NCBI GenBank assembly: GCA_017446685.1
Contig: JAFSQI010000058.1
Location: 19,788 to 83,787 of the forward strand
Source of the DNA: Butyrivibrio sp.
GTDB taxonomy: Bacteria; Bacillota; Clostridia; Lachnospirales; Lachnospiraceae
Reading direction: 5' to 3'
DNA length: 64,000 nt
In this document: positions 9,221 to 54,756 of the stretch, piece by piece
Position numbering within the stretch: position 1 is the stretch's first letter
Layout: each line of letters opens with the position of its first letter
Notes under the pieces: model-generated
What the model was told of the DNA's origin: nothing
Database searches by the model: none
What the model saw: the letters and a program-made list of their open reading frames with translations, nothing else
Translations under genes and position numbers: made by a program

Positions 9221-10933
9221 ATGTATGAAATTTCAAGAAAAGATTATGCGGCTATGTACGGGCCTACAACAGGTGACAGGGTTCGCCTTGGAGATACTTC
9301 ACTCATTGTTGAGGTTGAGAAGGACTATTGCAAATACGGAGATGAAGCTAAGTTCGGAGGCGGAAAGTCCCTTAGAGATGGTATGGGTCAGTCCTGCACT
9401 CATAAAGATGGGGAGTGTCTGGATTTTGTGATCACCAGTGCACTTGTCATTGATTATACAGGAATTTATAAGGCTGATATTGGAATCAAAGATGGCAAGA
9501 TTGCCGGGATTGGTAAGGCTGGCAATCCTCATGTTATGGATGGGGTAACTAAGGGAATGATAATAGGCGCATCTACTGAGGCTATGGCCGGTGAAGGACT
9601 GATAGTTACGGCGGGCGGGATAGATACTCATATTCATTTCATTTCCCCCACTCAGATACATACAGCTCTTTATTCAGGAGTGACCACCATGATAGGAGGA
9701 GGGTGCGGTCCTTCTGATGGAACGAATGCCACCACATGTACCCCAGGACAGTTCAACATAGAAAAGATGCTAGAGGCAGCAGAGAATGAGCCCATGAATC
9801 TTGGATTTTTGGGAAAAGGAAATTCCTCATCTTTTGATACTTTAAGAGAACAGGTGGAAGCTGGTGCCTGTGGACTTAAGATACATGAGGACTGGGGCTC
9901 AACACCCAAGGCAATCTCCACATGTCTTGATGTGGCTGATGAGTATGATGTTCAGGTTTCAATTCATACTGACACTTTAAATGAAGGCGGCTTTGTTGAA
10001 TCTACAATAGAAGCCTTTGGAGGAAGGACTATACATACCTACCATACGGAAGGCGCTGGCGGAGGACATGCTCCGGATATCATAAAGGCAGCTTCAATGC
10101 CAAATGTTTTGCCGTCATCAACTAATCCGACAATGCCATTTACAAGGAATACTATCGATGAGCATCTGGATATGCTGATGGTATGTCATCACCTTGATAA
10201 AAATAATAAGGAAGATGTTGCTTTTGCAGATTCCAGAATCAGACCTGAGACAATTGCTGCAGAAGATGTTCTTCATGACATGGGGATTTTTTCCATGATG
10301 AGTTCTGATTCTCAGGCGATGGGAAGAGTTGGAGAAGTTATCACCAGAACCTGGCAGACTGCAGATAAGATGAAAAAGCAAAGAGGCACACTTGATCTGG
10401 ATAATCCTCGAAATGACAACAACAGGGTAAAGCGTTTCATTTCCAAGTACACCATCAATCCTGCAATCACACATGGTATTTCCGAGTATGTGGGATCGGT
10501 TGGAGTAGGAAAGATTGCTGATCTGGTTCTTTGGAGACCTGATATGTTCGGTTTAAAGCCGGAGCACATCATAAAAGGGGGATTTATCTGTGCTTCCAGA
10601 ATGGGAGATGCCAATGCATCTATTCCTACACCACAGTCGGTTGTCTACACCGATATGTTTGGAGCAAAAGGGCAGGCCGTTAACAGGACAGGTATTACTT
10701 TTGTATCTAAATATGCTTATGAAAAGGGCATTAAGGAAAGACTTCACTTGGAAAAGAAGGTTCTTCCTGTTAAGGATTGCAGAAATATCGGTAAAAAAGA
10801 TATGAAGTTCAATGACGTTATTTCAAAGATAGAAGTTAATCCTGAGAACTATGAGGTTAAGGTGGATGGAAATATAGTCACCTGTGAACCCTTCAGCGAG
10901 CTTTCGCTGGCTCAGAGATATCTGATGTTCTGA
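9221..10933 (+). CDS. ureC: Urease alpha (catalytic) subunit
   Basis: Cytoplasmic catalytic subunit with the di-nickel site, 570 residues as usual. All active-site elements are present: His137 and His139 in THIHFI, carbamylated Lys220 with His222 in GLKIHEDWG, the histidines of [10 protein letters not shown] and [15 protein letters not shown], the mobile-flap CHHLD, and the metal-ligand Asp in [12 protein letters not shown]. The protein starts [19 protein letters not shown], a normal UreC N-terminus. It follows ureAB by three bases and precedes the accessory genes, so the structural and maturation genes are co-transcribed. Nothing suggests loss of activity. Confidence 0.98.
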
Positions 10934-13570: not shown

Positions 13571-13921
13571 TTGTCTTTGAAAGCACAGAAAAAGGAAATA
13601 GATCTGCTCCTTGCAGATAAAATAGAGAATGATACACGCTCATATTTTCGGACGATGGACATTGAGGCTACAAGGAATGCCTATGGAAGACAACTGGGGA
13701 GCTTTAGTACCAAAGCAGAATTTGATGGTATCAGAGTTGTACCTATGACTTTTATCAGAGCGCCGAAAATAAAAAAGGTATATGGAGAGGCATATCCGCT
13801 TTCAACGGTTGATGGAAATATAGTTGCCGCAAGACAGGGAAAATAGCTTGTCACTTCATTTCACCCAGAACTTGATAATTCAACGCTGATTCATGAATAT
13901 TTTTGTAGCATGATAAAATAA
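13571..13921 (+). pseudogene. pdxT: Remnant of pdxT (pyridoxal 5'-phosphate synthase glutaminase subunit)
   Basis: From about 13604 the translation follows the C-terminal half of PdxT: LLADKIEND, then ATRNAYGRQLGSF, FIRAPKI and NIVAARQGK. A TAG at 13844-13846 interrupts it, and the same frame continues with LVTSFHPELD to a TAA at 13919-13921. FHPEL contains the His and Glu of the glutaminase triad. The N-terminal half, including the nucleophilic Cys region, is absent; sequence before 13604 does not resemble PdxT in any frame. So the gene is both 5'-truncated and nonsense-mutated. No pdxS partner is visible. The only start available, TTG 13571, has no ribosome site. Confidence 0.8.
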
Positions 13922-14072: not shown

Positions 14073-15647
14073 ATGAATATATTTGAACGTATAAATGCGA
14101 TTGCCGATTATGGTTCGTTTATGGAATATAAAGATGATATTGATGTCAGCAGAGCTTATATTAATGAGGATTATCAGTCGAAAATAGAACGGCATAGGAA
14201 AAAATATGGAATAGATGAGGCGGTCATTACCGGAAGTGCGTTGATATTCGGGCATAAAGCTGCAATTGGAATTATGGATGCACGTTTTTTGCGTGCGAGT
14301 ATGGGATATTATGTTGGAGAAAAGATAACGCGGCTCTTTGAGAGAGCAGCAAATGAAGAACTCCCCGTAATCATGTTCTGTGCATCAGGAGGAGCAAGGA
14401 TGCAGGAAGGGATAATGTCACTTATGCAGATGCAGAAAACTTCCCAGGCATGTATGAGGCACAGTCAGAGGGGGCTTCTTTATATTTCTGTTTTGACTAA
14501 TCCCACTATGGGAGGAGTAACGGCAAGTTTTGCTACTCTGGCTGATATTATAATTGCAGAAGAAAATGCGCTGATTGGTTTTACCGGTCAGAGAGTCATT
14601 TCCCAGACTACAGGGGAAGTGCTGCCTGAAGGCTTTCAGACTGCTGCTTTTTTGAAAGAACACGGATTTGCGGATGAAGTTGTAGCAGAGTCCGATATGA
14701 AGGAATATCTTGGAAAACTACTTCATAATTTCTCAGGCAAAAGCGCAGATGAAATCACATATAAAAATAAATATGAAAATACGTGTGAAAGTAAATATGT
14801 AAAAACAGATGAATCCGCGTGTCAAAGTAACAATTGCGGCAGCAGCATAGGAAAAGCCTGGAAGGAAAGTGCATGGGAAAATGTAAGGCTTGCAAGGAAG
14901 GTCACGAGACCTACGGCACTTGATTATATAGAGGAATTATTTGATGGTTTTGTAGAGCTTCATGGTGACAGGATATGCGGTGATGACCATGCGGTGGTAT
15001 CAGGAATTGCCACTTATAAGGGACAGCCTGTTGTAGTTCTTGGTCAGCAGAAAGGGAAACCCGGAATTGAGGAGGCTTTGTACAGAAACTGGGGAATGGT
15101 TTCGCCGTCAGGTCATCGTAAGGTGATCAGGATATTGAAAATGGCTGAAAAATTCAAGTTTCCGGTGGTGATGTTTGTGGACACAATGGGAGCTGCATGT
15201 GGAAAAAATGCAGAAGAAATGGGGCAGGCAAATGCAATTTCAAATATTCTTGCAATTGCGTCGGAGTTAAAGACGGCTACTCTTTCTATAATTATTGGAG
15301 AAGCCGGAAGCGGAGGAGCTTTGTCTTTTTCTGTTGCCAATGAAGTGTGGATGCTGGAACATTCAGTGTTTTCTGTTATTACACCTGAAGGGTATGCCAG
15401 CATAGTCTGGAAGGACAGTGAAAGAAAGAGTGAAGCCGCAGAAATAATGGGAATGTGTGCTGATTCGCTTCTGGAGCAGAATGTTATAGACAGAATAATA
15501 TCTGAGTCAGAGCCGGCTACAAAAGAAAATCTAAAAGAAATCTGTTATGAAATCTCAAAAAATATGGAAGATTTTTTTGATAAATACTGTGCTATGAGCA
15601 GAGAGGAAATAGTGGAGAGAAGGTATGAGCGATACAGAAAATTTTAA
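14073..15647 (+). CDS. accDA: Fused acetyl-CoA carboxyltransferase, AccD-like plus AccA-like domains
   Basis: Predicted to carboxylate acetyl-CoA to malonyl-CoA with a biotinyl carrier from elsewhere, 524 residues. Residues 1-225 are a beta-type (AccD) crotonase fold with SGGARMQEG, NPTMGGVTASFATLAD and GFTGQRVI. A polar 45-residue linker follows. Residues 275-524 are alpha-type (AccA) with RPTALDYIEELFDGFVELHG, HRKVIRILKMAEKF, and EAGSGGALS. The N-terminal CxxC zinc ribbon of standard AccD is missing. Biotin carboxylase and carrier genes are not in the window. It is the first gene of the operon and overlaps the thioesterase by 23 bases, so a dedicated malonyl supply for the downstream synthase is the simplest reading; a housekeeping role is possible. 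Confidence 0.88.
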   Translation: MNIFERINAIADYGSFMEYKDDIDVSRAYINEDYQSKIERHRKKYGIDEAVITGSALIFGHKAAIGIMDARFLRASMGYYVGEKITRLFERAANEELPVIMFCASGGARMQEGIMSLMQMQKTSQACMRHSQRGLLYISVLTNPTMGGVTASFATLADIIIAEENALIGFTGQRVISQTTGEVLPEGFQTAAFLKEHGFADEVVAESDMKEYLGKLLHNFSGKSADEITYKNKYENTCESKYVKTDESACQSNNCGSSIGKAWKESAWENVRLARKVTRPTALDYIEELFDGFVELHGDRICGDDHAVVSGIATYKGQPVVVLGQQKGKPGIEEALYRNWGMVSPSGHRKVIRILKMAEKFKFPVVMFVDTMGAACGKNAEEMGQANAISNILAIASELKTATLSIIIGEAGSGGALSFSVANEVWMLEHSVFSVITPEGYASIVWKDSERKSEAAEIMGMCADSLLEQNVIDRIISESEPATKENLKEICYEISKNMEDFFDKYCAMSREEIVERRYERYRKF

Positions 15648-16317
15648 GCGCTCGGTTGTGATATTGGCACCGCATGCCGGTGGAGATTCTATTGCATATG
15701 CGTGGCTTTTAAAAAGGCTAAAGGATGATGGAGAGGCATATTTTTTTGAAATCGCCGGACATGGCAGAAGGCTGGAAGAAGCTTATCCTAAGAGTTACGA
15801 AGAAATAGTCATGGATTTTGTGGACTTTATAAGGAAAAAAACAGAAGGGGATAAGAACTATATTATTGCCGGAGACAGTATGGGCGCATATCTTTGTGAC
15901 AGCGCATATGGAAAGATTAAGGCAATGGGTGGCAAGTTGCCGGTTCATGTAATATATGGTGCAATTGATCCCAAACTTGAAATAAACGAGCTTTCGATAA
16001 AAAACATAGAAAAGCACAATTCAAATATGGATTTGTTGGACAGGGACAATTCCTATTGCAGGTATTTAAAAGATATTCTTGAGAAAGATGCGGAATTATT
16101 AAGAAAGAGTGAAACTTGGCTAAGCAGCATACTTGAGTGCGAGATGTCTTTTTTCATGGGAAAAAATGATTCATTGCTTGGAGATGTGAGATATGACTGG
16201 TCAGGGCTTGCACCGAAGGGGTATAGAGAGTATTTATTTGACGGAGAGCATCTTTTTATGACATCCAACAAAAATGTAGCTGAAACAATTATAAGGATAA
16301 GGAGCAGATATGAGTAA
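15625..16317 (+). CDS. Type II thioesterase (alpha/beta hydrolase)
   Basis: Stand-alone thioesterase of the kind that edits carrier proteins in polyketide and peptide synthases, 230 residues. It starts VVILAPHAGGDS, the usual oxyanion-loop entry. The nucleophile elbow is GDSMG with Ser85, the acid is probably Asp182 in GKNDSLL, and the base is His209 in DGEHLFM. Known enzymes clear misprimed acyl groups from ACPs or release products. The start lies inside the end of accDA behind GAGAGAAGG and the stop overlaps the next gene by eight bases, so translation is coupled through the operon. Confidence 0.88.
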   Translation: MSDTENFKRSVVILAPHAGGDSIAYAWLLKRLKDDGEAYFFEIAGHGRRLEEAYPKSYEEIVMDFVDFIRKKTEGDKNYIIAGDSMGAYLCDSAYGKIKAMGGKLPVHVIYGAIDPKLEINELSIKNIEKHNSNMDLLDRDNSYCRYLKDILEKDAELLRKSETWLSSILECEMSFFMGKNDSLLGDVRYDWSGLAPKGYREYLFDGEHLFMTSNKNVAETIIRIRSRYE

Positions 16318-17176
16318 AGTAACAGTGGTATTTCCGGGGCAGGGGAAGAAATTTGGAAAAACAGAGTTATTACTAATGGAGAGACATACTGACATTGTGG
16401 AAAAAGCTGAGAATGTTCTGGGCTTTTCTCCAATTTCTCTTTTAAAGGACAGACCGGAGGAAATCAAGAGAACAGAGTATGCTCAGCCTATGGGATATCT
16501 TACAGCTTATCTTTTTTATGAAGAGCTTATTTCAAAACTTGGAAAAAAGCCGGATTTTGTAATTGGACATAGTTTGGGGGAATTGTGTGCACTTACTGCC
16601 GGAGAATATATAGATTTTGAGGATGGGTTAATTCTTGTAAACAAACGTGGAAGAATTATGGCAAAGGCCGGCGAAGGTGGCATGACTGCAGTTATGGGAA
16701 AAAATCCGGAGAAGATACTTGATGCTATTGAGGATGAAATATCAGGCGATATTGATATAGCAAATTATAATTCTCCTTTCCAGATTGTGATTTCCGGACC
16801 GGATGATTCCCTAAACGAAGCTGAAGAAAGGCTTTCGGAAAGAGGACTTAAGGCGGTTAGACTTTCTGTAAGTGGTGCTTTTCATTCAAGATATATGAAC
16901 GCCGCAGCGGAGGAGTTTAACAAGGAGCTTAATTCTTTTCCGTTTGAAAGAGGAGGAGAAGTCAAAGTAATGTCATCTGTCAGACCTGTCTTTTACGGGG
17001 AAAATCCTCTTGATATTTTAAGAGAACAGATAACATCTCCGGTTCGCTTTACGGAGAGCATAAATGAAATTATAGATCAGGGATGCTATGACTTTATTCA
17101 GGTTGATGGTGGACTTGGAATGATCAATCTTGTAGATGAGATCAAATTTGACAGAGCACTTAATAGTAGAAATTAA
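16310..17176 (+). CDS. Stand-alone (trans) malonyl-CoA:ACP acyltransferase, FabD-like
   Basis: Loads malonyl from CoA onto an acyl carrier protein, 288 residues. Motifs seen are VFPGQGKKF at the N-terminus, the nucleophile GHSLGE (Ser88), NKRGRIM (the Arg that binds the malonyl carboxylate in FabD), and SGAFHS with catalytic His192. The QVDGGLGMINLV end is a normal C-terminus. It could be the housekeeping FabD, but its place between a type II thioesterase and a synthase that lacks an AT domain suggests that it serves that synthase in trans. The start overlaps the thioesterase stop by eight bases. Confidence 0.9.
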   Translation: MSKVTVVFPGQGKKFGKTELLLMERHTDIVEKAENVLGFSPISLLKDRPEEIKRTEYAQPMGYLTAYLFYEELISKLGKKPDFVIGHSLGELCALTAGEYIDFEDGLILVNKRGRIMAKAGEGGMTAVMGKNPEKILDAIEDEISGDIDIANYNSPFQIVISGPDDSLNEAEERLSERGLKAVRLSVSGAFHSRYMNAAAEEFNKELNSFPFERGGEVKVMSSVRPVFYGENPLDILREQITSPVRFTESINEIIDQGCYDFIQVDGGLGMINLVDEIKFDRALNSRN

Positions 17177-17241
17177 AGTTCAGACTAAGATGCATGGATC
17201 AGATGCGAGCGTAAAAAAGATTTGACGGGAGAAAATTTAGA

Positions 17242-20200
17242 ATGGTACTTAGAGATTTACTTATAAACAGAGCAAAAGATTACAGCCAGAAGAAACTTTA
17301 TCTTGTGGAAAATGATGTGTATATGAGCTACAGAGAGCTATATATTCAGGCAAAGAAAGTCAGCAGAGCATATAGACAGGCAGGGGCTGGAAAAGGAGAT
17401 TTGATTTTAATACAGTCAGTTGAGCCTATTTATACATTTATGGGTTTTTGGGGAGCAATACTGATAGGAGCGATTCCTGCTCTTTATCCTATAAATGCGG
17501 ATTTGAAGCAGCATATCCCTGCAATTACAGCTCTTTGCAGAGATTTTGAGATCAATTATATTTATTCGGATATGGTTTTGGGTGATGCATTGGGAAAAAT
17601 GATGGAGCAAAAAATCATAATCCCGGGCGAATATGAAAAAGCATCTGACAGCGAGGGTACGGATTATTCTGAATTTAAAGATATTTCGATTTACGACGAT
17701 GATACGGCTGTGCTTCAGTTTTCTTCAGGCTCAACAGGAAATCCTAAGGGAGTTCTTTTGACAAATAAAAATGTTGTAAGTAATGCGTTTGCAACGGCTG
17801 ACAGGATTGATCTGACAAGGGAAGATAACGTATTTAACTGGCTTCCGCTTTCACATGATTTTGCAATACTTGCGATGCATATGTGCCCTATTGCCTTTGG
17901 GTGTGACCAGATTTGCATGAAGCCGACGACATTTCTTAGAAGTCCTTCAATCTGGGCAAAGATTGCAACACAGGAAAAAGCAACATTTTCTCCAATGCCG
18001 AATTTTGCCATGAATCTGATAATCAAGACATTTGAAAAGGGAGATTATGAGGCGGTTGATTTAAGTGGTTTTAAGGGCGCTGTAAGTGCAGGCGAAGGTG
18101 TGTCGGTTGCAACCTGTGACATGTTTGTTAAAGTTCTTTCACCTTATGGTTTTAAAGATAGCGCTGTAATTCCTGCATATGGTCTTGCTGAGGCAACTGT
18201 TACAGTTTCTTTGGGCAATCCAAAGGAAGAGAGAGAGGCCTTTTATGTGGCGCCTGATGCAGCTATAGGTGACGCTGTTTTGGGAAAAGAAAAGGTGGCA
18301 AATGCAAGGCTTATAATCGGATGCGGAAGGCTGATAAGATGCAATGATGTCTTTATTTGTGATGATGATTTCAGAGTTTTGGAAGATGGGCATATCGGAA
18401 ACATTCTGGTTTCCGGAGATAATGTCACAAAGGGCTATTATAAAAATGAAGATGCTACAAGAGATATACTAAGGCCTAATGGTGATCTTGTTACAGGAGA
18501 TATTGGTTTTATTTGCGATGGACAGCTTTTTATCAGCGGAAGACGCAAGGAAATGATAATTGTAAACGGCAGAAACTATTTTTCTTCTGATATAGAAATG
18601 GCAGTCAGAAGCACAGTTAAGGAATTGGCTGAAAGATCGCTTGCTGCATTTGGAGTTCATGATTCAAAAGAAGATGTTGAAAAACTATATATAGCTGTGG
18701 AAAGTACAGATCCTTCAGATGAAAAGCTGTCTAAAGATGTGGCAAATGCTGTTGTTTCAAAACTTCATATTCCGTGCGAAAGGGTTGTCTTTTTACCGGA
18801 ACTTCCAAAGACTGCAAGTGGAAAAATCAGATATTATCTTTTGACAAGAAAATTTGAAGAGGAGATCTTAAGACAGAAATCTGACAATAAAGAAAATGCT
18901 GAGTCTTTTGGAATGAAAACTGTTGATTCTGATGAAAATGCATACGAAATGCCGTCAAATAAGGATGAAGATTTTGTTCTTAAGAAGAATATCAAGCTGG
19001 AGTTTGGTAAGTTGATTTCAGAGGTAATGGAAGGCGAACTGTCTGAGGATGATTATGACAGACCATTTGCTGAGCTTGGTATAGATTCACTTGGAATAGA
19101 GAGCCTTCTTGGAAAGCTTGAAAAGGAATTTGGGGTTAATTTGACAGTGGATGTTCTTTGGAGCTATCCGACAATAAATAAGATGGTGGACTATTTAAAG
19201 GATAAGGCAGAAAGTTTTGATGCAGAAGAGACTTCTGATGAAAGTAGACCTGATATTAATTTAGCTGATTATATGAATGATGATATAGCAATTGTGTCCA
19301 TGGCTTGTCATTTTCCTAAGGAAGCAGACAGTCCGAAAAAGTTTTGGGAAATGCTATGTGAAGGTAAGGATGCAATAGATTATCCGGATGAAAATAGGAT
19401 AAAGCTGTCAGGAAATGAAGGACTAAGAAATTTTAAGGCCGGATATATTAAAGATATAGATAAGTTTGATTCAAGAAAGTATGGAATAACTCCGAAGGAA
19501 GCAATTAAGATGGATCCTCAGCAGAGGCTTCTTTTAAAGACTGCTTCTGAGCTTTTTGTAAATAGCGGAAAAGATGAGAAGGCTTTTGAAGGAACTGACA
19601 CAGGCGTATATATCGGAGTTTCAAACCATGATTATGCATCTTTGTTTTCTGATGAAGATAAAGACCTGTATTACAGCACGGGAAATTCATCAAGTATTAT
19701 GGCAAACAGACTGTCATATGTCTTTAACCTGTCAGGGCCAAGTGTTGCTATTGATACTGCCTGCTCGTCTTCACTGGTGGCGCTGCATATGGCAGCAGGA
19801 GCAATACGAAACGGAGAGTGTAAAAGTGCAATTTGCGGAGGCGTGAACATTTTGTTGGAGCCTGTGATTTCTGAGGCATTTAAAAATGCGGGAATGCTTT
19901 CTCCGGATTCAAAGTGTAAGACCTGTGATGAAACAGCTAATGGATATGTGCGAGGCGAGGGTTGTGGTCTTGTTCTTTTGAAAAAATATTCTGATGCAGT
20001 GAAGGATGGAGATACGATTTATGCAGTTGTTGCCGGTTCTGCGGTAAATCAGGATGCAAAGAGTAACGGACTTACTGCGCCAAGCGGAAAAGCTCAGGAA
20101 AATGTAATAAAGAAGGCACTTGATAATGCAGGAGTAATGCCTGGAGATGTTGACTACATAGAGCTTCATGGAACAGGAACGAAGCTTGGAGATCCTATTG

Positions 20201-22224
20201 AGCTAAATTCAATAGGTAACGTGTTTGCTGACAGTCTTTTTACAAATGATAAGGAAATGCTGGTTGGATCAGTTAAAACAAATATCGGACATCTTGAGTC
20301 TGCGGCCGGAATTGCAGGTGTTATCAAGGCAACTATGATCCTGGCAAAGGGAGAATATCTTGAGTCGATAAATTATAACAGGAAGAATCCATATATCAAG
20401 GCAGGCGATAATATAAAGGTTGCAACAAAAGAAAATATTACAGGAATGAGGAGCCCTGAGGTAGCAGGAATCAGCTCTTTTGGATTTGGAGGAACGAACT
20501 GTCATGTTGTTTTAAAGGCAGCAGGACGAGCAGATATAGATAAGCTTGACACGGAGCTTTCAAAGGGCGAAAGCTATTTTATCGAGGTTAGGTCAAAAGT
20601 GTCAGAGCATGCAGCAAACGGTATGAAGACAGGAAGTTCAGAAAGGATAATGAGTCAGGACTTTGCTGACAGTAAATTTGTGACAGTGTCAGATAGCAGA
20701 AGTGTATTGGAAATTGTAAAGGAGGCACTTTCAAAGGTTACTGCTTATCCTGTTGATACGCTTAATGATAGCGACAGGCTCATGTATGATCTTGGAATTG
20801 ACTCCATTATGATGGGAGATCTTGTAAGTGACCTTAGCAGTACCTTCTCTTTTGGAAAAGAGCAGGTGGAGAAGCTTATTTCTCTGGCAGCAGGAGAAAG
20901 CACGACAATTGCTGACCTTGTAAGCATCATTGAGAAAGCAGGAGGAAATGTCCCTGCAGCCGGATATAGTGAAAGCTCTTATAGCGAAGCTAAAGAACAG
21001 GTGGATGATTTTGAGACATATGAGTCAGGGAATGTACCGATAGAGCAGGAGACGTCTGTTTCGGATTTTGAGGAATATAAGGCTATTCATTCAAGACTTC
21101 AGAACATCAGCAGCAATCCCTACTACAAGGTAAATTACGGTGTTCCGAGGGATGTTATAGAGACTGATGACGGTCAGAAGATCAATTATTCAACATATAA
21201 TTATGTCGGATTAAACGGCAAGAAGGAGGTCTGTGAAGCTGCGCAGAAGGCAGTGGAAAAGTATGGTACATCTGTTTCCGGAAGCCGTATGATTTCAGGT
21301 GAGATAGATCTTCACAGGAAGCTTGAGAATGCAATAACAGAGTTTCTTGGAACTGAGGATACCATTGTCTATATTGGTGGTTACACTACAAATGTCAGTG
21401 CAATCAGTACGATAGTTTCAGATAAAGATCTGATATTGCATGACAGTCTTTCACATAACAGTATAATTACGGGATGCAGGTTGTCAGGTGCAAAGAGAAT
21501 GAGCTTTAAGCATAACGACATGGAATCTCTGGAGGATGCTCTTAAGAGAGTGCGAAAATTCTACAGAAGGGTTCTGATTGTTGTGGAAGGCGTTTACAGC
21601 ATGGACGGAGATATTTGTAAACTGCCGCAGCTCATAGAACTGAAAAAGAAGTATGGAGCTCTTTTGATGGTGGATGAAGCTCATTCACTTGGCACAATAG
21701 GTGACTGCGGAAGAGGTGTTGGAAGCTATTACAATGTGGACAGAAAAGATGTTGATCTTTGGATGGGAACAATGAGTAAGTCTCTTGCAAGTTGCGGAGG
21801 ATATATTTCCGGGTCAAAAGAAATTGTGGAGCTCTTAAAGTACACCTCAGACGGATTTATGTTCAGCGTTGGCATATCACCTGCTAATGCGGCAGCAGCT
21901 CTTGAGGCACTCAACATACTAAAGAATTCTCCGGAGCTTGTTGAAAAACTGGAACACAACAGCAAATTTTTCCTGGAAGCCATGAAGGAAAAAGGATTAG
22001 ACACAGGTCTTGCTGAAGGAACTGCGGTTGTTCCATGCATAATCAAGGACTCAAATAAGTGTATGGAAATTTCACAGAAACTTTATAAAAAGGGAATAAA
22101 TGTAATGCCTATCGTATACCCGGCTGTTTCTGAGGAAGAGGCAAGGCTCAGATTCTTTATTTCCAGCGAACATACAGAGGAGGAAATGCGATATACTGTT
22201 GATGTTCTGGCAAGAATGCTGTAA
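17242..22224 (+). CDS. Hybrid synthase: acyl-AMP ligase, ACP, ketosynthase, ACP, alpha-oxoamine synthase
   Basis: A 1660-residue polyketide synthase-like protein with five domains. Residues 1-545: fatty acyl-AMP ligase type adenylation domain, with ATP loop FSSGSTGNPKG (160-170), NWLPLSHD, GRRKEMIIVNGRNYFS and the terminal TASGKIRYY lysine. About 575-655: ACP1, Ser616 in GIDSLG. About 675-1125: ketosynthase with Cys841 in DTACSSS, His976 in HGTGT and His1017 in NIGHLES, at canonical spacing. About 1165-1240: ACP2, Ser1188 in GIDSIM. About 1285-1660: PLP fold-type I alpha-oxoamine synthase with Asp1478 and His1481 in DEAHSLG and PLP Lys1513 in MSKSLASCGG. There is no AT, KR, DH, ER or thioesterase domain. 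All catalytic residues are present, so the protein should be active. It belongs to the operon starting at accDA. Confidence 0.92.
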   Translation: MVLRDLLINRAKDYSQKKLYLVENDVYMSYRELYIQAKKVSRAYRQAGAGKGDLILIQSVEPIYTFMGFWGAILIGAIPALYPINADLKQHIPAITALCRDFEINYIYSDMVLGDALGKMMEQKIIIPGEYEKASDSEGTDYSEFKDISIYDDDTAVLQFSSGSTGNPKGVLLTNKNVVSNAFATADRIDLTREDNVFNWLPLSHDFAILAMHMCPIAFGCDQICMKPTTFLRSPSIWAKIATQEKATFSPMPNFAMNLIIKTFEKGDYEAVDLSGFKGAVSAGEGVSVATCDMFVKVLSPYGFKDSAVIPAYGLAEATVTVSLGNPKEEREAFYVAPDAAIGDAVLGKEKVANARLIIGCGRLIRCNDVFICDDDFRVLEDGHIGNILVSGDNVTKGYYKNEDATRDILRPNGDLVTGDIGFICDGQLFISGRRKEMIIVNGRNYFSSDIEMAVRSTVKELAERSLAAFGVHDSKEDVEKLYIAVESTDPSDEKLSKDVANAVVSKLHIPCERVVFLPELPKTASGKIRYYLLTRKFEEEILRQKSDNKENAESFGMKTVDSDENAYEMPSNKDEDFVLKKNIKLEFGKLISEVMEGELSEDDYDRPFAELGIDSLGIESLLGKLEKEFGVNLTVDVLWSYPTINKMVDYLKDKAESFDAEETSDESRPDINLADYMNDDIAIVSMACHFPKEADSPKKFWEMLCEGKDAIDYPDENRIKLSGNEGLRNFKAGYIKDIDKFDSRKYGITPKEAIKMDPQQRLLLKTASELFVNSGKDEKAFEGTDTGVYIGVSNHDYASLFSDEDKDLYYSTGNSSSIMANRLSYVFNLSGPSVAIDTACSSSLVALHMAAGAIRNGECKSAICGGVNILLEPVISEAFKNAGMLSPDSKCKTCDETANGYVRGEGCGLVLLKKYSDAVKDGDTIYAVVAGSAVNQDAKSNGLTAPSGKAQENVIKKALDNAGVMPGDVDYIELHGTGTKLGDPIELNSIGNVFADSLFTNDKEMLVGSVKTNIGHLESAAGIAGVIKATMILAKGEYLESINYNRKNPYIKAGDNIKVATKENITGMRSPEVAGISSFGFGGTNCHVVLKAAGRADIDKLDTELSKGESYFIEVRSKVSEHAANGMKTGSSERIMSQDFADSKFVTVSDSRSVLEIVKEALSKVTAYPVDTLNDSDRLMYDLGIDSIMMGDLVSDLSSTFSFGKEQVEKLISLAAGESTTIADLVSIIEKAGGNVPAAGYSESSYSEAKEQVDDFETYESGNVPIEQETSVSDFEEYKAIHSRLQNISSNPYYKVNYGVPRDVIETDDGQKINYSTYNYVGLNGKKEVCEAAQKAVEKYGTSVSGSRMISGEIDLHRKLENAITEFLGTEDTIVYIGGYTTNVSAISTIVSDKDLILHDSLSHNSIITGCRLSGAKRMSFKHNDMESLEDALKRVRKFYRRVLIVVEGVYSMDGDICKLPQLIELKKKYGALLMVDEAHSLGTIGDCGRGVGSYYNVDRKDVDLWMGTMSKSLASCGGYISGSKEIVELLKYTSDGFMFSVGISPANAAAALEALNILKNSPELVEKLEHNSKFFLEAMKEKGLDTGLAEGTAVVPCIIKDSNKCMEISQKLYKKGINVMPIVYPAVSEEEARLRFFISSEHTEEEMRYTVDVLARML

Positions 22225-22317: not shown

Positions 22318-22362
22318 ATAAATGATATTGTGACAGGTTGAGGCGTGGAGGATGGTATATCC

Positions 22363-37381: not shown

Positions 37382-39361
37382 TTAAATAGTAATACTTTGT
37401 AACATTACAGGGATATTTAAATTTACGCATTTATTGGCATATGGAGAAGAATCACCGTAATAGGCATCCCATCTTTCAATGTAATTCTCAGATTCATTTT
37501 TTTCATCATAAATACAGTTTTTTGATTTTTTCATATTTTCAATGAAGTCAATGTATTTTTTATAGAGCGTATTGTCTATGCCGGGTAATTCGTCTAAAAT
37601 CTGCTTTTGAGGAAGAAAAACAACAATGATTTTATCTCCATTTTCTTCAAATACAGACAGACTTCGGTAAAGCTTGTCAATCGATTTTTCTTTTCCTCTG
37701 AGTAGGAAACTGATAGTGATGTGATAAATAAGTATTTTTTTATGATCTTTATTCTCAAAAAGAGATGATAATTCCGATTTACCGGTATTATTTTTTTCTA
37801 ATTCATTTTTAGTATTTTCAAGGTATTTTTTCTCGACCAGATCAGTTATTAAGACAGCTTTTTGTTCCCAATAAGCTGTTGTATCATTTCCACATAATTC
37901 GGTCATGTGGGATATGTAAAAATTCCGTGTTTTTTCATCTGCCAGGATTATCCTGTCTGCATTAATTACAGCTTCTTGTTCAATAAATACAGAAATTGCA
38001 GCAGAGGTTTTATCACCGTCCGAGATTGGAGCATCCATTTCCATATAAGGAATGTAAATCAGCTCGTCAGTAAATCTTAATAGATTTGCTGAATAGAAAT
38101 ATTCATGAACGGTCATGAAAGTACACCATCCGTCATAAGGAACCTGAATGAAAATTTTATCAGGATGTATGCTTTCAAAATCAAATTTTTCGCAGTCCGA
38201 TATATTTAAATAATCAGGGAAAAGATGCCGTTCATCATGTTTTTCCCCAATGTTTCCGTTATAATCACAGTCGTAGTAGAAAATCGGAAGTACGTAGACA
38301 TCTGTATTTTCATTTGAACTGTATTGTTTCCATAAGGGCTCCATGGTGTGCCACCACCTGGCTTTACAAGGCAGAAACACAACAGTTTCATGATTGGATT
38401 TTTTTTGTGGAGCTATGTTTTGGCATGCAATATCTGATGCAGCTCTTTTAACATAGCGCTGAACACTTGTTAGAAGTTCCACGTAATCAATGGTATACCT
38501 ATAGGGATTTCGCCCGATATTATTTTTTAAAATCTTTTCCTGCTCTGCATAAACAGGATAATTGTGCATTCCTCCGCTCTTATTTACTTTCATGAAATCG
38601 CCATAATCAAGTTCCAGGATTTCATCATATCTTGCAGCAGCATTAACAAAGGTGTGTTCAAAAGAAAGCCTGGTTATATTTTCATACAGTTCTTTTGGAA
38701 AAATATGATTACCGGATGAAATAAAAAATGGCATTAATGCAACATTTTTTGCATTTTCACAAGGACATTCACTGTATACTTCTTCAATTTCCAATAAAAG
38801 CTTTCTTTTTTGTGTTTCGTTTGAATCCACAAGTTTTGATGTTAGTGCCGCAGCCCTTTGAGTACGGTCATTTTCTTTTTCCTGATCATCATATACGCCG
38901 TCCAATGGGAAAATGTCAACACCAACTGTATAAGGGCATCCGAAGTTTTCTGCAAGATGCTTTTGACTGTAATTAATTGTGGATGAATTGATAATCCGCC
39001 CTGTTATTTCTTCATAGCCGGGAGTATTTCTAATGGTGAGAATTTTGTAGCTTTCAGGAGCTTCTTTTTTTGCTGCTTCAAAAAAAATGTTCCAGTCCTC
39101 TCTGAACATACAGATATCAAGGTCATCATCCCAAGGAATATATCCGCCGTGACGTACAGCACCAATCAACGTGCCATAGTCTGCAAACCATCTAAGGTTG
39201 TGTCTTTCGCATATTCCATCAATAACAGACAGAACCTTGAGCTGCGCTGCCCAATATCTTTTCATCATTGACGAAATGAAAAATCCTTCACGAACTTCAT
39301 CTTCAAAGAAAGAAGGGGGAAAGTATAGGTTATTCAGTTCAGTTGATTGTATTTGTGCCAA
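37382..39361 (-). CDS. LicD-domain protein with additional C-terminal glycosyltransferase-like region
   Basis: 659 residues, TTG start (no ATG is possible before an in-frame TAA upstream; AAGGA lies just upstream). Residues 30-200 are a LicD nucleotidyltransferase-fold domain with FADYGTLIGAVRHGG followed by PWDDDLDICM, which hold the catalytic Gly-Thr and the Asp cluster. LicD enzymes transfer phosphocholine or similar phosphodiester groups to glycans and teichoic acids. The C-terminal half (about 325-659) has alternating beta-alpha pattern, with VVFLPCKARWWHTMEPLW and IFIQVPYDGW; I could not assign it, but a GT-B or CDP-glycerol-transferase-like fold is possible. Position next to the flagellar genes suggests phospho-modification of flagellin glycan, an inference. 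Confidence 0.78.
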   Translation of the reverse strand: MAQIQSTELNNLYFPPSFFEDEVREGFFISSMMKRYWAAQLKVLSVIDGICERHNLRWFADYGTLIGAVRHGGYIPWDDDLDICMFREDWNIFFEAAKKEAPESYKILTIRNTPGYEEITGRIINSSTINYSQKHLAENFGCPYTVGVDIFPLDGVYDDQEKENDRTQRAAALTSKLVDSNETQKRKLLLEIEEVYSECPCENAKNVALMPFFISSGNHIFPKELYENITRLSFEHTFVNAAARYDEILELDYGDFMKVNKSGGMHNYPVYAEQEKILKNNIGRNPYRYTIDYVELLTSVQRYVKRAASDIACQNIAPQKKSNHETVVFLPCKARWWHTMEPLWKQYSSNENTDVYVLPIFYYDCDYNGNIGEKHDERHLFPDYLNISDCEKFDFESIHPDKIFIQVPYDGWCTFMTVHEYFYSANLLRFTDELIYIPYMEMDAPISDGDKTSAAISVFIEQEAVINADRIILADEKTRNFYISHMTELCGNDTTAYWEQKAVLITDLVEKKYLENTKNELEKNNTGKSELSSLFENKDHKKILIYHITISFLLRGKEKSIDKLYRSLSVFEENGDKIIVVFLPQKQILDELPGIDNTLYKKYIDFIENMKKSKNCIYDEKNESENYIERWDAYYGDSSPYANKCVNLNIPVMLQSITI

Positions 39362-39529
39362 AATATGTCCTTAACTCCTAAAGGCTGTTTGATCTGATAA
39401 GAAAGTATACTTTGAGGTATTCAAAATATGGTTTACGGTTTTAAATATATTCTATCACATTAAAACGAATAATTATATTATAATAGAAAGTAGAAGATGA
39501 GGTTGATTGGGAAGAGGCAAAGATAGTAA

Positions 39530-40702
39530 ATGAATATTATTTTTTACAGATACAATAGTATATGTGAGCCTGATTATATAGAAGCATTTAAAAAAATTGG
39601 AATAAACGTGATAGAAGACAAGGATGGTTCAAATTTTCAAATTGATGTGCAAGAGAAGATTATGAATCTTGGTGAAATTATAGCCAGAGAAAAACCTATG
39701 TTTGTTTTTTCAATTAATTTCTTTCCATTAGTATCAAGAGTATGCGATAGAATTGGAGTTAAATATCTTACGGAAACCGTAGACTGCCCAGTGTTCGAAA
39801 TATATCATAGTGAAATTAGAAATACTTGCAATAATGTGTTTTTATTTGATTATGCGCAGTATTTGTCTGTAAAAAATGAAAATCCAAATGGAATATTTTA
39901 TCTCCCTTTGGGGGCGCCGGTGGAAAGAGTGAGTTCTTTGCTGGGAAATGAAAAAAAGTATAAATATGATATATCATTTGTTGGCTCATTATATAACGAG
40001 AAAGATCCTTTTATGAATCTGAAAATATCTGAGCCAAGTAGAATAAAACTTCAGGAGCTTATGGAAAAACAGATATTGGAAGAGCCTTGTGGAATAAATT
40101 ACATTAAAGAAAATTTACTTGAGAAAGATATAGCGGAGTTAAAAAGAGATGGCTGTTCCAATCCTTTTGTTGGTACTATTGAAAATATTGATACATTTGT
40201 TGCAATAAATAATTATTTGACATATCACATGGCTTATATGGAAAGAGTCAGATATTTAAATAAACTGGCAGAAGAATTTGGAGAAGGGGTAGTTAATATT
40301 TTTACCGGAAGTATGAGTAATGAATTATCATGCGGAGTTGATTTACATGATAGTGTAAAGACTCTTACTGAAATGCCTTTTGTTTTCAGACAAAGCAAAA
40401 TTAATCTGAATATTACTATGCGCTCGATTCAAACAGGCATACCGCAGAGAGTATGGGATGTTATGGCATGCAGGGGGTTTCTTTTGACTAATTATCAGCC
40501 TGAGCTTGAGGAATATTTTGATGTAGGTACACATCTTGAGACTTTTTGCAGTTACGAAGAGCTTAAAGAAAAAGCGATGTATTATTTATCACATGATGCC
40601 GAAAGGGAAAAAATCGCACATAACGGTTATGAGGAAGTCAAGGAAAAACATTCGGTAGTTAATAGAGTCATGAGCATGATAAGGATGGTTTCAACAAAAT
40701 AA
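39530..40702 (+). CDS. CgeB-like glycosyltransferase upstream of flagellin
   Basis: 390 residues, third CgeB-like copy. N-terminal block IIFYRYNSICEPDYIEAF and CPVFEIYHSEIRNTC, C-terminal block RQSKINLNITMRSIQTGIPQR, then DVMACRGFLLTNYQPELEEYF. It lacks the usual second Gly of the GGF motif (CRGF instead), a small departure. The ribosome site is weak (AAGAGG some 15 bases upstream). It stands directly before the first flagellin gene, though that gene has its own sigma-28 promoter, and is divergent from the LicD gene, so both promoters must lie in 39362-39529, which is very AT-rich. Confidence 0.8.
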   Translation: MNIIFYRYNSICEPDYIEAFKKIGINVIEDKDGSNFQIDVQEKIMNLGEIIAREKPMFVFSINFFPLVSRVCDRIGVKYLTETVDCPVFEIYHSEIRNTCNNVFLFDYAQYLSVKNENPNGIFYLPLGAPVERVSSLLGNEKKYKYDISFVGSLYNEKDPFMNLKISEPSRIKLQELMEKQILEEPCGINYIKENLLEKDIAELKRDGCSNPFVGTIENIDTFVAINNYLTYHMAYMERVRYLNKLAEEFGEGVVNIFTGSMSNELSCGVDLHDSVKTLTEMPFVFRQSKINLNITMRSIQTGIPQRVWDVMACRGFLLTNYQPELEEYFDVGTHLETFCSYEELKEKAMYYLSHDAEREKIAHNGYEEVKEKHSVVNRVMSMIRMVSTK

Positions 40703-40754
40703 TATAAAATTTCAAATTTTATACAAAATTACGAAAAAAAATTTAAAAACAAGG

Positions 40755-40781
40755 TTAATTAAATAAAAACTTAGCCGATAC
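40755..40781 (+). promoter_or_regulatory. Sigma-28 promoter for the first flagellin gene
   Basis: The -10 GCCGATAC (40774-40781) matches the sigma-28 consensus at seven of eight positions. Exactly 15 bases upstream the -35 reads TTAA (40755-40758), a poorer match than for the other two flagellar promoters here. Transcription would start near 40788 and give a leader of about 105 bases. Confidence 0.7.
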
Positions 40782-40801
40782 AATATTTGTAAAAAATAAC
40801 A

Positions 40802-40833
40802 GCAGCCATGGAAGGGACTCCACATTTAGCTGC
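40802..40833 (+). promoter_or_regulatory. Structured flagellin leader with GGA-bearing loop (possible CsrA site)
   Basis: GCAGC (40802-40806) pairs with GCTGC (40829-40833), and inside it TGGA (40809-40812) pairs with TCCA (40819-40822) leaving loop AGGGAC, which exposes GGA. A second GGA pair lies in the ribosome site GGAGGA (40879-40884). A GGA hairpin plus a GGA Shine-Dalgarno is the arrangement through which CsrA represses hag in B. subtilis. Confidence 0.45.
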
Positions 40834-40892
40834 AAACTAAAAAGAAGGAAAGGCAGCAGGGAAGCGGGCCCCGTTCATGGAGGATTATAAAA

Positions 40893-41711
40893 ATGGTAGT
40901 ACAACACAATATTTCTGCAATGAATGCTAACAGACAGCTTGGAATCACAACTGATGTCCAAAAGAAATCAAGCGAAAAGCTTTCATCAGGTTATCGGATT
41001 AATCGTGCGGCTGATGATGCTGCAGGACTTGCTATTTCTGAAAAAATGAGACGTCAGGTAAGAGGTCTTACTCAGGCATCTGCAAATGCTCAGGACGGTA
41101 TCTCAGCGGTTCAGACGGCAGAGGGTGCGCTTAATGAAGTTCATGATATGCTACAGAGAATGAATGAACTTGCTGTAAAGGCCGCCAATGATACATTACA
41201 GTCAACGGATCGTTCTTACATAAAGTCAGAAATAAATGCGCTGGCTTCAGAGATTTCACGTACTGCAGCCTCGACGCAGTTTAATAATCAGAATCTTCTT
41301 GATGGAACATTTACAAATAAGAATCTGCAGGTTGGTTCAGATTCAGATGCTCAGAATCAGATTATAATTTGTATTGAAGAAATGTCAGCGACGCATATCG
41401 GGGTTAATGATTTGCAGGTAAGTACTCATGATGTGGCAAAGTCGGCAATAACTTCTATTAAAGAAGCCTTGATTTCAGTTTCCAAGCAAAGATCAGATCT
41501 TGGGGCTATTCAGAACCGATTGGAACATACTATTAAGAATCTGGATAATGTAGTTGAGAATACTCAGGCTGCAGAGTCGCTTATACGTGATACAGATATG
41601 GCTGAAGAGATGGTAAGATATTCAAATAACAATATTTTGATGCAGGCCGGTCAGTCTATGCTTGCACAGGCAAATCAGAGTAACCAGGGAGTACTCTCTC
41701 TTCTTCAGTAA
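40893..41711 (+). CDS. fliC: Flagellin (first copy)
   Basis: 272-residue filament subunit. The N-terminal D0/D1 block (NISAMNANRQLGIT, SSGYRINRAADDAAGLAISE) and the C-terminal block (NRLEHTIKNLDNVVENT, AQANQSNQGVLSLLQ) are joined directly, with no D2/D3 variable domain. LQRMNELAVKAANDT corresponds to the TLR5-contact helix of enterobacterial flagellins and is conserved. It is closely similar to the copy at 43733, differing mostly by scattered substitutions in the middle. It has its own sigma-28 promoter, leader and terminator. Export is by the flagellar apparatus, with FliS as chaperone. Confidence 0.97.
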   Translation: MVVQHNISAMNANRQLGITTDVQKKSSEKLSSGYRINRAADDAAGLAISEKMRRQVRGLTQASANAQDGISAVQTAEGALNEVHDMLQRMNELAVKAANDTLQSTDRSYIKSEINALASEISRTAASTQFNNQNLLDGTFTNKNLQVGSDSDAQNQIIICIEEMSATHIGVNDLQVSTHDVAKSAITSIKEALISVSKQRSDLGAIQNRLEHTIKNLDNVVENTQAAESLIRDTDMAEEMVRYSNNNILMQAGQSMLAQANQSNQGVLSLLQ

Positions 41712-41741
41712 TGTTTAATATGTTTAATATGTTTTGAATGT

Positions 41742-41776
41742 GTGGATGCGAAGAAGTGTTTCGCATCCACTTTTTA
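41742..41776 (+). terminator. Intrinsic terminator of the first flagellin gene
   Basis: GTGGATGCGAA (41742-41752) pairs perfectly with TTCGCATCCAC (41760-41770), with a 7-base loop, followed by TTTTTA. Confidence 0.92.
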
Positions 41777-41864
41777 TTGTTATTCAGTCTGGTTTAGACT
41801 AAACTGTAATTATAAGAATTATAAATTATGAAAATAATCTTAAAAAATGCAGGAGAAAAGAGGA

Positions 41865-43476
41865 ATGGGAATATACTTAAATCCTGGAAATGAGAATTTT
41901 ACAGAACATATCAGAGCAAAAATTTATGTAGATAAAACAATGATGATTGAGGTCATAAATAAGTATATGGATGAAAGCAACAAGTATATTTGCATTTCAC
42001 GTCCTCGCAGATTTGGGAAAACTATTACAGGAAATATGCTTGCGGCATATTATTCAAAGGGATGTGATTCAAGACAGTTGTTTTCAGATTATAAAATTGC
42101 CCAATGTGAAGACTTTGAGGAAAAGCTTAATAAATATAATGTTATTCAAATAGATATGAATAGCGAATATCAAAATACTGCTGATAAAGAAAATCTTATC
42201 GCAATTCTTTCCAAAAAAATAATTAAAGAAATAAAAGACAGTTTTACCAATATTGCTGTTGAGGATAACGGTTCTCTGGCAGAAACTATTTTGTCAGTTT
42301 ATACATTGACACAAGAAACTTTTGTTATTTTGCTGGATGAATATGATATTCTTGTAAGAGAAAGGGTTTCCAACAGGCTATTTAATGAATATTTAAGCTT
42401 TTTAAATGGGCTGTTTAAGAGCAATACTTTACGACCTGCAATTTCATTGGCATATATTACAGGGATACTTCCGGTAGTAAGAGATAAAATACAGTCAAAG
42501 CTAAACAATTTTCGTGAATATACATTTATAAATGCAATAAATCTTGCGGAATATGTTGGTTTTACATCAAAAGAAGTGAAAAATCTCTGTGAGCAATATT
42601 CGATTGATTTTAATGAATGTAAGGCATGGTATGATGGATATAAACAGCGTGGAATTGAAATATATAATCCGGAGTCTGTTGTAAAATGTATTGAGGATGA
42701 GCAGTTTGAAGGCTATTGGAGTAAAACATCATCTTATCAGGTAATTGCTGACAGACTTAGTCAGAATTTCCAGGGAACCAAGGATGATGTTGTAAGGATG
42801 CTTTCAGGGGAATGCGTTGACGTTAATGTGACAAGCTTTCTTAATACATTGAACAATTTTGTTACCAAGGATGATGTATTTACATATCTTATTCATCTGG
42901 GTTACCTGGCTTATGATTATGGAGAACAGACCTGCAGAATTCCTAATAGGGAAGTAAGGCAGGAATGGATTAATGCGATTACAGCCCTTGACGATTATAA
43001 AGTTACTAATAAGATAATACAGGATTCAAAGAGGCTTTTGCAAAGTACAATCGATGGTGATGCCAAGGCGGTTGAAGAAGCACTTGATTTGAGCCATATT
43101 CATGTCACGTCAAATCGCAGTTACAACAATGAAGATGCACTTCAAAGTGCAATTTACCTTGCGTATATATGCACTCAATAAATACATGATAGTAAAAGAA
43201 ATGACAACAGGCAAAGGATTTGCAGATGTAGTATTTATACCGTATGATTCCACACTACCTGCCATGATCATTGAACTCAAGAAAAACAAGACTGCTGAAA
43301 GTGCCATTGATCAAATTAAAGAGCGAAAATACTTTGACTGTTTGAGAGGGTATATGGGAGAGCTACTTTTTGTGGGAATAAATTATGATGAGAACACCAA
43401 AAAACATAGTTGCATCATAAAAAAGTTTGTCAAAAGTGAAGGAGGCACGGAACCAGATAAAAAGGCGAAAATATGA
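41865..43476 (+). pseudogene. Frameshifted AAA-ATPase/PD-(D/E)XK nuclease family gene
   Basis: Two overlapping frames encode one protein of the AAA-ATPase-like plus DUF1703 nuclease family. Frame one (41865-43181) gives the typical start MGIYLNPGNENF, SRPRRFGKTITGNML as Walker A-like motif and FVILLDEYDIL as Walker B, and ends at a premature TAA. The C-terminal nuclease part is in another frame up to 43476, with TGKGFADVVFIP and PAMIIELKKNKTAE, which hold the Asp and ExK residues. Adding one TA to the TATATAT run at 43164-43170 restores a single frame reading LAYIYALNKYMIV. The start at 41865 fits the family better than 41847. Many copies of this family occur in gut anaerobes; function is uncertain. 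It separates the two flagellin genes. Confidence 0.8.
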
Positions 43477-43595
43477 GGAATCGATCTTAAGCGAAGGCTA
43501 TTGCAGTGTTATTTCCTACGGGATATGTTTTTGTAAAAAGAGTTGTATTGTTGAATGTGGAGAATAATTTTATATTTTTTTTAAAAAATCACCCC

Positions 43596-43622
43596 TAAAG
43601 TTTTTATAATTATAGTCGATAA
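43596..43622 (+). promoter_or_regulatory. Sigma-28 promoter for the second flagellin gene
   Basis: TAAAGTTT begins at 43596 and GTCGATAA lies at 43615-43622, with the canonical N11 between the 8-mers. This matches TAAAGTTT-N11-GCCGATAA at all but one position and is the best flagellar promoter in the window, suggesting this is the major flagellin. Confidence 0.9.
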
Positions 43623-43640
43623 TAAGAGTGTAAACAAAAT

Positions 43641-43706
43641 TGAAACTGATTCATGCCAGCAGTGAGTCAGCTTCAAAAACAAGTAAACGAGCAGCAAGGA
43701 TGTTGC
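43641..43706 (+). promoter_or_regulatory. Structured flagellin leader with CsrA-like hairpin
   Basis: Two hairpins occupy the 5' leader. The first pairs 43641-43653 (TGAA, then CTGATTCA) with 43663-43675 (TGAGTCAG, then TTCA), with one mismatch and one G-U pair. The second, 43694-43706, is GCAA-GGATG-TTGC, which presents GGA in a 5-base loop and includes CAAGGATGT, very near the CsrA selection consensus ACARGGAUGU. The ribosome site AAGGAGGA (43718-43725) supplies a second GGA pair 20 bases on. Confidence 0.55.
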
Positions 43707-43732
43707 CGTATATATTCAAGGAGGAATAAATT

Positions 43733-44551: not shown

Positions 44552-44606
44552 TAGTATTATTGTTCATAAGAACAAGCGGTCTATTGCAATTATTGCAGAC
44601 TACCAG

Positions 44607-44636
44607 AAGAGCTCCGGATTTCCGGAGCTCTTTTTT
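44607..44636 (+). terminator. Intrinsic terminator of the second flagellin gene
   Basis: AAGAGCTCCGGA (44607-44618) and TCCGGAGCTCTT (44621-44632) pair perfectly with a 2-base nominal loop, followed by a T-run to 44636. Confidence 0.93.
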
Positions 44637-44701
44637 GCATTATTAGTGCGGTATATGATAAAATAAATATACGTTAAAAAGTTTTAGGGAGAAGCTTTGA
44701 T

Positions 44702-45931: not shown

Positions 45932-46011
45932 CATGACAACATAGAGAATGCTGTACAAAAGTAAATATTTACTTTATCCGATAGAGGTATATAAGAAATG
46001 AGGTGTGCAAC

Positions 46012-49944: not shown

Positions 49945-49966
49945 CTAACAAAAAGGGGAATATAAT

Positions 49967-51979: not shown

Positions 51980-52054
51980 AAAATATGTTTTAGAGTGCAT
52001 GCAGGAAGTGATAAGAAAACGCAATTGTAGAAAAATGTAATGATAAGGGGAAAT

Positions 52055-53509: not shown

Positions 53510-53555
53510 ATAATTCTTAATTTTATTTATAGCCTCATTTTTGCAGGAGCCTCAA

Positions 53556-54728: not shown

Positions 54729-54756
54729 TATATGTTATTTTAGGGATAAGATTGAT

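Follow-up and report, generated by a model that had tools for sequence, protein, structure and literature searches.

Four genes on the forward strand, at positions 14073–22224 of the window (the whole stretch of 64,000 nucleotides from Butyrivibrio sp. that was analysed), constitute one operon, and it is fairly probable that they encode a self-contained synthase whose product, a fatty acyl aminoketone, turns into a five-membered nitrogen ring. Most likely the operon brings together a loading half like that of iturin, a malonyltransferase acting in trans and a RedL-like ending, in a new arrangement of known prodiginine logic. It is real, conserved and rare. If the reading is true, it adds a differently arranged route to alkyl-pyrrolinones or hydroxypyrroles, from a major rumen bacterial group, and the four genes are compact enough to be tested on one plasmid.

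Organization of the Operon

The genes are clean in Pfam and NCBIfam searches and follow one another on the + strand with a 23-base overlap, an 8-base overlap and then a 65-base gap. The first (14073–15647) encodes a fused AccD-AccA carboxyltransferase of 524 aa, recognized by Pfam PF01039 and PF03255 and by TIGR00515 from model position 58. It is followed by a type II thioesterase of 230 aa (15625–16317; Pfam Thioesterase, E 1.8e-9; motif GDSMG by eye), which weakly matches surfactin TEII in the PDB (E 0.00068), and by an Acyl_transf_1/FabD-like protein of 288 aa (16310–17176), a stand-alone malonyltransferase (MAT) that appears from PDB matches and tree to be of the trans-AT PKS kind. The fourth gene (17242–22224) encodes a synthase of 1660 aa with the Pfam families AMP-binding, PP-binding (in two stretches), ketoacyl-synt and Aminotran_1_2, and its order FAAL-ACP1-KS-ACP2-AONS was delimited with an alignment of six orthologues.

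The FAAL-like domain occupies residues about 14–540 (17281–18861); the Pfam AMP ligase match covers 14–400 and the NCBIfam fatty acyl-AMP ligase models extend to about 540. ACP1 lies at residues 591–652 (19012–19197; PF00550) and carries Ser616, and the KS at 680–1105 (19279–20556) carries C841, H976 and H1017. ACP2, the second PP-binding stretch, spans residues about 1157–1235 (20710–20946) with Ser1188, and was aligned to the ACP preceding the AONS in a Streptomyces anthocyanicus protein (L072). The AONS, a PLP-dependent releasing domain with Lys1513, ends the chain at residues about 1290–1656 (21109–22209; Pfam PF00155 at 1312–1656, E 1.3e-58). Invariant in all six relatives are K528 of the FAAL, S616 of ACP1, C841, H976 and H1017 of the KS, S1188 of ACP2, and N1320, H1405, D1478, H1481, K1513 and R1637 of the AONS; the MAT retains its Q, S, R and H motif residues. 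We take these residues of the synthase and MAT, and the thioesterase motif, to be the catalytic ones. The sequence-only reading had described four overlapping or adjacent genes with intact catalytic motifs and a ligase-ACP1-KS-ACP2-AONS chain, and this description is borne out by the open reading frames, the Pfam matches and the invariance in 6/6 copies. Domain identity, motif integrity and the conservation of the operon are observed here.

The Loading and Extension Domains

The AMP ligase predicted at the front of the synthase turned out to be FAAL-like with NCBIfam models as well as in the PDB. Its best PDB rows comprise McyG (nearest), 3kxw and three polyketide synthase entries; of the 19 rows, six bear the name AMP or adenylate ligase (FadD23, FadD28, FadD32, 3pbk) and two that of an amino acid adenylation domain. 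With McyG as the nearest solved ligase and two amino acid adenylation domains among the matches, the activated acid may be something other than a simple fatty acid.

The synthase chain is devoid of an AT domain and the malonyltransferase is a separate gene, i.e. the KS belongs to an AT-less module. The KS-AT linker is truncated, as the PF16197 match covers only model positions 2–54 of 111. In a quick tree, calculated without the loci L072, L075, L144, L076 and L138 (no row at the score and length filter), the KS formed an isolated branch whose placement is unsettled. As had been stated from the letters, Pfam finds no ketoreductase in the chain.

In the case of the MAT, PksC and PksE were the first two PDB matches and DisD took ranks 4–7; other rows carry no more specific name than malonyl-CoA ACP transacylase or similar. 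The PDB scores were 179.6 versus 94.8 bits for 1mla, which we take to be E. coli FabD. In the tree the MAT stands apart from the FabD of its own genome and groups with the stand-alone ATs encoded in a Bacillus velezensis cluster (presumably bacillaene), in Paenibacillus sonchi and on plasmid pTML1 (presumably the thiomarinol cluster), with a support of 90/91 that is below the starred level. By sequence the MAT thus resembles trans-AT polyketide enzymes more closely than FabD, and the earlier description of a stand-alone malonyltransferase in trans-AT style agrees with these closest solved relatives and with its place next to an AT-less KS module.

The Terminal Oxoamine Synthase Domain

The AONS belongs to the alpha-oxoamine synthase fold family with its PLP-site residues in place. 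A tree of 37 rows, from which the G009 copy (near-identical to that of G104) and many near-identical or order-level rows were omitted, placed it in a set of 13 rows with a support of 100/100. The set includes five operon copies, the PKS-fused AONS of Planktothrix (L073) and S. anthocyanicus (L072), AONS genes of Pseudomonas and Paraburkholderia that adjoin type I PKS genes, an AONS of S. meliloti that follows a 7.5-kb gene annotated as SDR and that is presumably RkpG, an unannotated one of Methylobacterium and two unplaced ones from the phylum. PigH had been named earlier as an example of such enzymes; the rows taken for PigH, which were named from gene context, fall outside the set, so that PigH serves poorly as a model. 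Free-standing AONS genes with 44–45% identity (L086 and L087, in G769 and G1069; frames of 537 and 530 aa) were also observed in the same phylum.

The Ser in the loop YGTSVSGSR aligns with a Ser in the serine palmitoyltransferase (SPT) 3a2b, a Thr in human SPT2 and a Val in Kbl 7bxp. As judged from the alignment, this weakly hints that the amino acid is alanine or serine and not glycine. Against the hint, it concerns a single residue, and human SPT2, which is likewise named as a serine enzyme, carries Thr instead. An annotated BioF (L142) also has Ser at this position.

The first four PDB matches of the AONS are named serine palmitoyltransferases, and some of its kin are located near capsule or lipid genes. 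These observations would suit a sphingoid-like base synthase, in which serine and a fatty acyl thioester (or a chain reduced later) would be condensed directly by the AONS, giving a membrane lipid that resembles 3-oxo-sphinganine, with the KS off the main path. A combination of acyl-ACP synthetase, special ACP and SPT is indeed used by Caulobacter, according to the relevant part of PMC9386255. Such a function is nevertheless unlikely here, since the MAT, the carboxyltransferase, the KS and ACP2 would be idle, yet all are kept with their key residues and the measured genes are under purifying selection; moreover, no ketosphinganine reductase was found among the flanking proteins scanned. A related point that weighs against the aminoketone synthase is that the AONS could in principle use the acyl chain on ACP1 directly.

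Selection on the Operon

Amino-acid identity between the window and its relatives is 90–93% for the AONS and 70–75% for FAAL and KS. The AONS gave dN/dS values of 0.020–0.044 in four usable pairs, versus 0.050–0.275 in the other genes and domains: 0.050–0.149 for the carboxyltransferase (five pairs), 0.063–0.114 for the FAAL (four), 0.091–0.114 for the KS (three), 0.106–0.170 for the MAT (five) and 0.068–0.275 for the thioesterase (four). The values were obtained by NG86, computed for each gene on six of 15 possible pairs; where synonymous sites were saturated no ratio resulted, and several of the remaining pairs come close to saturation. In the closest pair, G104–G009, the AONS value of 0.044 is hardly below the 0.050 of the carboxyltransferase, and dS varies from 0.05 to 0.39 by gene. 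Overall, the AONS is the most constrained part of the operon. Recent exchange of the AONS domain was considered as the cause of its high identity but rejected, since divergence at four-fold sites is nearly as great in the AONS (agreement between window and relatives 0.34–0.44) as in FAAL (0.29–0.44) and KS (0.27–0.42).

The constraint on the AONS also bears on the mode of release. One KS can in principle act repeatedly and the operon has a thioesterase, so the synthase might iterate or release its chain otherwise, by thioesterase hydrolysis or pyrone formation, with the aminodiketone as a minor product. As the AONS is the most constrained domain, we regard this alternative as improbable.

Proposed Pathway

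For the preferred aminoketone synthase, we infer the reactions, the substrates, the single extension and the ring closure as follows. The FAAL would activate a free fatty acid with ATP and load it onto ACP1. The carboxyltransferase would help to make malonyl-CoA, from which the MAT would load malonate onto ACP2, and the KS would join the acyl and malonyl groups once to give an unreduced 3-ketoacyl-ACP2. Condensation with an amino acid and loss of CO2 at the AONS would then afford R-CO-CH2-CO-CH(R')-NH2, the amine of which could close on the far ketone to a 2-alkyl-pyrrolin-4-one or 3-hydroxypyrrole. The thioesterase may clear misloaded carriers or, as reported for RedJ, release the starter acid.

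No RedK-like reductase was found in the four operon genes, and the 20 flanking proteins scanned at five carriers included neither a reductase nor an NRPS. With no RedK-like gene in the operon or its flanks, the pyrrolinone or hydroxypyrrole itself may be the product. The mechanism put forward in the sequence-only reading is still the best available: the intact terminal AONS and the probable release of an aminodiketone able to ring-close stand, although similar chemistry is already on record for RedL.

Comparison with Known Systems

RedL of S. coelicolor, an enzyme of undecylprodiginine biosynthesis, has its own ligase and integrated AT domains. The Butyrivibrio synthase similarly has ligase-ACP-KS-...-ACP-AONS in one chain, the comparison being one of reported chemistry. 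In Butyrivibrio the AT is a separate protein, whereas it is built into RedL; the operon further includes a carboxyltransferase, and a reductase was found neither among its genes nor among the flanking proteins scanned. The operon was not filed as RedL on account of the absent integrated AT. In the parts of the literature that describe RedL, RedL shows the steps predicted for the Butyrivibrio synthase: an ACP-bound chain, malonate extension by a KS and PLP-dependent condensation with an amino acid. Both pathways include a type II thioesterase, which in the RedL case is RedJ. According to these parts, RedL makes 4-keto-2-undecylpyrroline from a dodecanoyl chain, malonate and glycine, and RedK then reduces the product (PMC11188435, PMC12654105, PMC4147253). 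The dodecanoic acid freed by RedJ is described as the substrate of RedL in the relevant section of PMC12654105, and the dodecanoyl transfer to RedL is ascribed to RedR in one and to RedJ in the other of the corresponding sections of PMC11188435 and PMC4147253. The assertion that no product had been described for such an order is not supported, given what these sources report of RedL.

The bacillomycin protein BamA also has FAAL-ACP-KS-ACP followed by a PLP enzyme, with the malonyltransferase gene BamD directly upstream, and is collinear with the synthase over residues 23–1092 at 33% identity. Its PLP enzyme, however, is a class III aminotransferase and the chain continues into condensation/NRPS parts, whereas the AONS ends the chain in Butyrivibrio. 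BamA keeps the KS-AT linker that is truncated in the Butyrivibrio synthase, and BamD is not the nearest MAT. Since the aminotransferase and the NRPS are absent, the operon was not filed as an iturin unit; the iturin and mycosubtilin loading units are kin of the bacillomycin unit.

The PKS-fused proteins of Planktothrix and S. anthocyanicus are similar in the AONS (52% identity; 41% over ACP-AONS) and belong to the same AONS set, but have a built-in AT and are without FAAL, and the Planktothrix protein has DH-ER-KR. The S. anthocyanicus gene (L072, 11713–16536) is located on a plasmid, encodes 1607 aa with the order KS-AT-ACP-AONS and stands alone beside an MMPL transporter gene; it is another minimal AONS-terminated PKS. 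PigH/RedN likewise have ACP plus AONS; they use serine and give a pyrrole product, which the Butyrivibrio synthase may do as well. They differ in the position of the AONS in the tree (rows named from context) and in a chain without FAAL or KS.

Distribution

A search with the AONS domain found the operon in 6/79 genomes of the genus, the own genome included. The domain-architecture check suggested earlier was thereby carried out, and the fused order recurs in all these carriers. The gene order carboxyltransferase-thioesterase-MAT-synthase is identical in all six. The operon lies on one contig in five carriers (the window, L036, L038, L039 and L049) and is split over two contigs in G110 (L048/L050 and L055). 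A second, paralogous operon in G110 (L055) was considered and rejected, as the overlapping ends are 96% identical and the same operon is cut by the contig end.

When the flanking stretches were compared for matches of ≥40% identity, neighboring genes common to G051, G104 and G009 were found. The flanks of the window, G045 and G110 share nothing with other carriers except one pair of 45% identity distant from the operons. The operon therefore occurs in at least four genomic surroundings. The same gene order in six genomes, together with near-saturated synonymous sites in the presence of still similar proteins, shows that the operon is not a chance assembly.

Outside the genus, the fused synthase was found neither in 397 genomes of the family, where two candidates were scored per genome so that misses are possible, nor in 295 genomes of the order; in 398 genomes of the phylum it was absent among the matches listed, with frames outside the own genome of at most 809 aa. 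Each of these counts includes the own genome. At 80% coverage it was absent from 72,556 plasmid records and 50,697 phage records, and none was found in viral contigs. A scan of genome contigs with two FAAL peptides was used as well, which reaches close kin only. In open-licence papers, no description of the FAAL-ACP-KS-ACP-AONS architecture and no publication on Butyrivibrio with trans-AT polyketide synthases was found, and in the part covered by a term search a 2025 review of FAALs (PMC11837247) yielded no RedL, oxoamine or Butyrivibrio.

Fatty Acid and Malonyl-CoA Supply in the Carrier Genomes

The own genome has a FASII locus (G000:C114) with fabK, fabD, accB, accC, accD and accA (NCBIfam, some below the curated cut-off) and, by eye, fabG, fabF and fabZ. 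It also has one phosphopantetheinyl transferase match of 225 aa and Sfp-like size, for which all NCBIfam matches are below cut-off. Outside the operon, G110 too encodes AccA, FabD and biotin carboxylase. In G009, G045, G051 and G104, the operon supplied the sole AccA found at E 1e-40 and, with its MAT, the sole FabD-type match at E 1e-10; biotin carboxylase was not found at E 1e-15. These genomes are 84, 89, 95 and 99% complete with 7, 1, 1 and 4% contamination, respectively. Among non-carriers used for comparison, biotin carboxylase and a FabD-family match were present in 4/4 and AccA in 7/7.

Fatty-acid-requiring Butyrivibrio (strain S2) exists, and from their gene content the four carriers look like fatty-acid auxotrophs. 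Flanking genes are common to three of the four, which may point to a single loss in one lineage. As four of six carriers are without the FASII markers looked for, the starter acid is probably scavenged; if they are auxotrophic, it must be, and the carboxyltransferase must obtain carboxybiotin elsewhere. The operon itself has no biotin carboxylase or biotin carrier genes. Selection maintains the carboxyltransferase even in the carriers where biotin carboxylase was not found, with dN/dS values of 0.050–0.104 in four pairs among them. The source of malonyl-CoA in these carriers is the most surprising point, and it counts against the aminoketone synthase that the standard malonyl-CoA route leaves it unexplained. 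The carboxybiotin may perhaps come from oxaloacetate decarboxylase; in the own genome, OadA and OadB (above NCBIfam cut-offs), a free biotin carrier and an MmdA-like subunit occur together (G000:C104). Tentatively, and with some doubt, we suggest that in the four carriers the operon carboxyltransferase could make malonyl-CoA by transcarboxylation from the biotin carrier of a sodium-pumping oxaloacetate decarboxylase, replacing the ATP-driven biotin carboxylase, and that the malonyl-CoA would then be spent on this single lipid-like product of a scavenged fatty acid. The background without FASII markers makes it possible to examine how malonyl-CoA is made in the absence of biotin carboxylase and whether fatty acids acquired in the rumen end up in a bioactive lipid.

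The presence of only the carboxyltransferase half of acetyl-CoA carboxylase (ACC) in the operon, and of a primary carboxyltransferase elsewhere in the own genome, would also be compatible with a drug-resistant target copy, the product being an ACC inhibitor, like AdmT in andrimid clusters. At what we take to be the resistance position of AccD, all six operon copies have Thr versus Met in 8/10 AccDs outside the operon, and in the AccA glycine motif all six have Ala versus Gly in 8/8 AccAs outside. However, Met is replaced by Ser and Thr in the other two of the ten AccDs, and Ser also occupies this position in AccD of S. aureus. ACC-hitting natural products with such copies do exist, as the pertinent parts of PMC6269866 and PMC13151354 describe. 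The operon AccA is, however, the only AccA found in 4/6 carriers, so there is no duplicate there, and self-resistance appears very unlikely.

The AccD zinc ribbon is missing from all six operon copies of AccD-AccA, whose first 60 residues contain no CxxC. Another genome of the genus (G046:C5; L107, L016, L032, L126) has an AccD-AccA fusion that does possess the zinc ribbon; it shares 51% identity with the operon copy and is encoded on the same contig as PKS matches.

Genomic Neighborhood

Downstream of the operon the next gene, at 22345, encodes an HD-domain protein. Upstream are genes read as a urease operon and, between these and the operon, a broken remnant of pdxT (PLP synthase glutaminase; 13571–13846), which matches only about model positions 80–161; the DNA past its stop is still like the pdxT C-terminus by eye. 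An Rfam match to 5_ureB_sRNA (9371–9665, − strand; 113 bits, E 6.6e-29) lies antisense to the gene read as the large urease subunit and may perhaps be a mere reflection of conserved coding sequence. Further downstream, a low-GC stretch at 37382–56214 contains LicD, glycosyltransferase and WavE-like genes, possibly for surface polysaccharide decoration.
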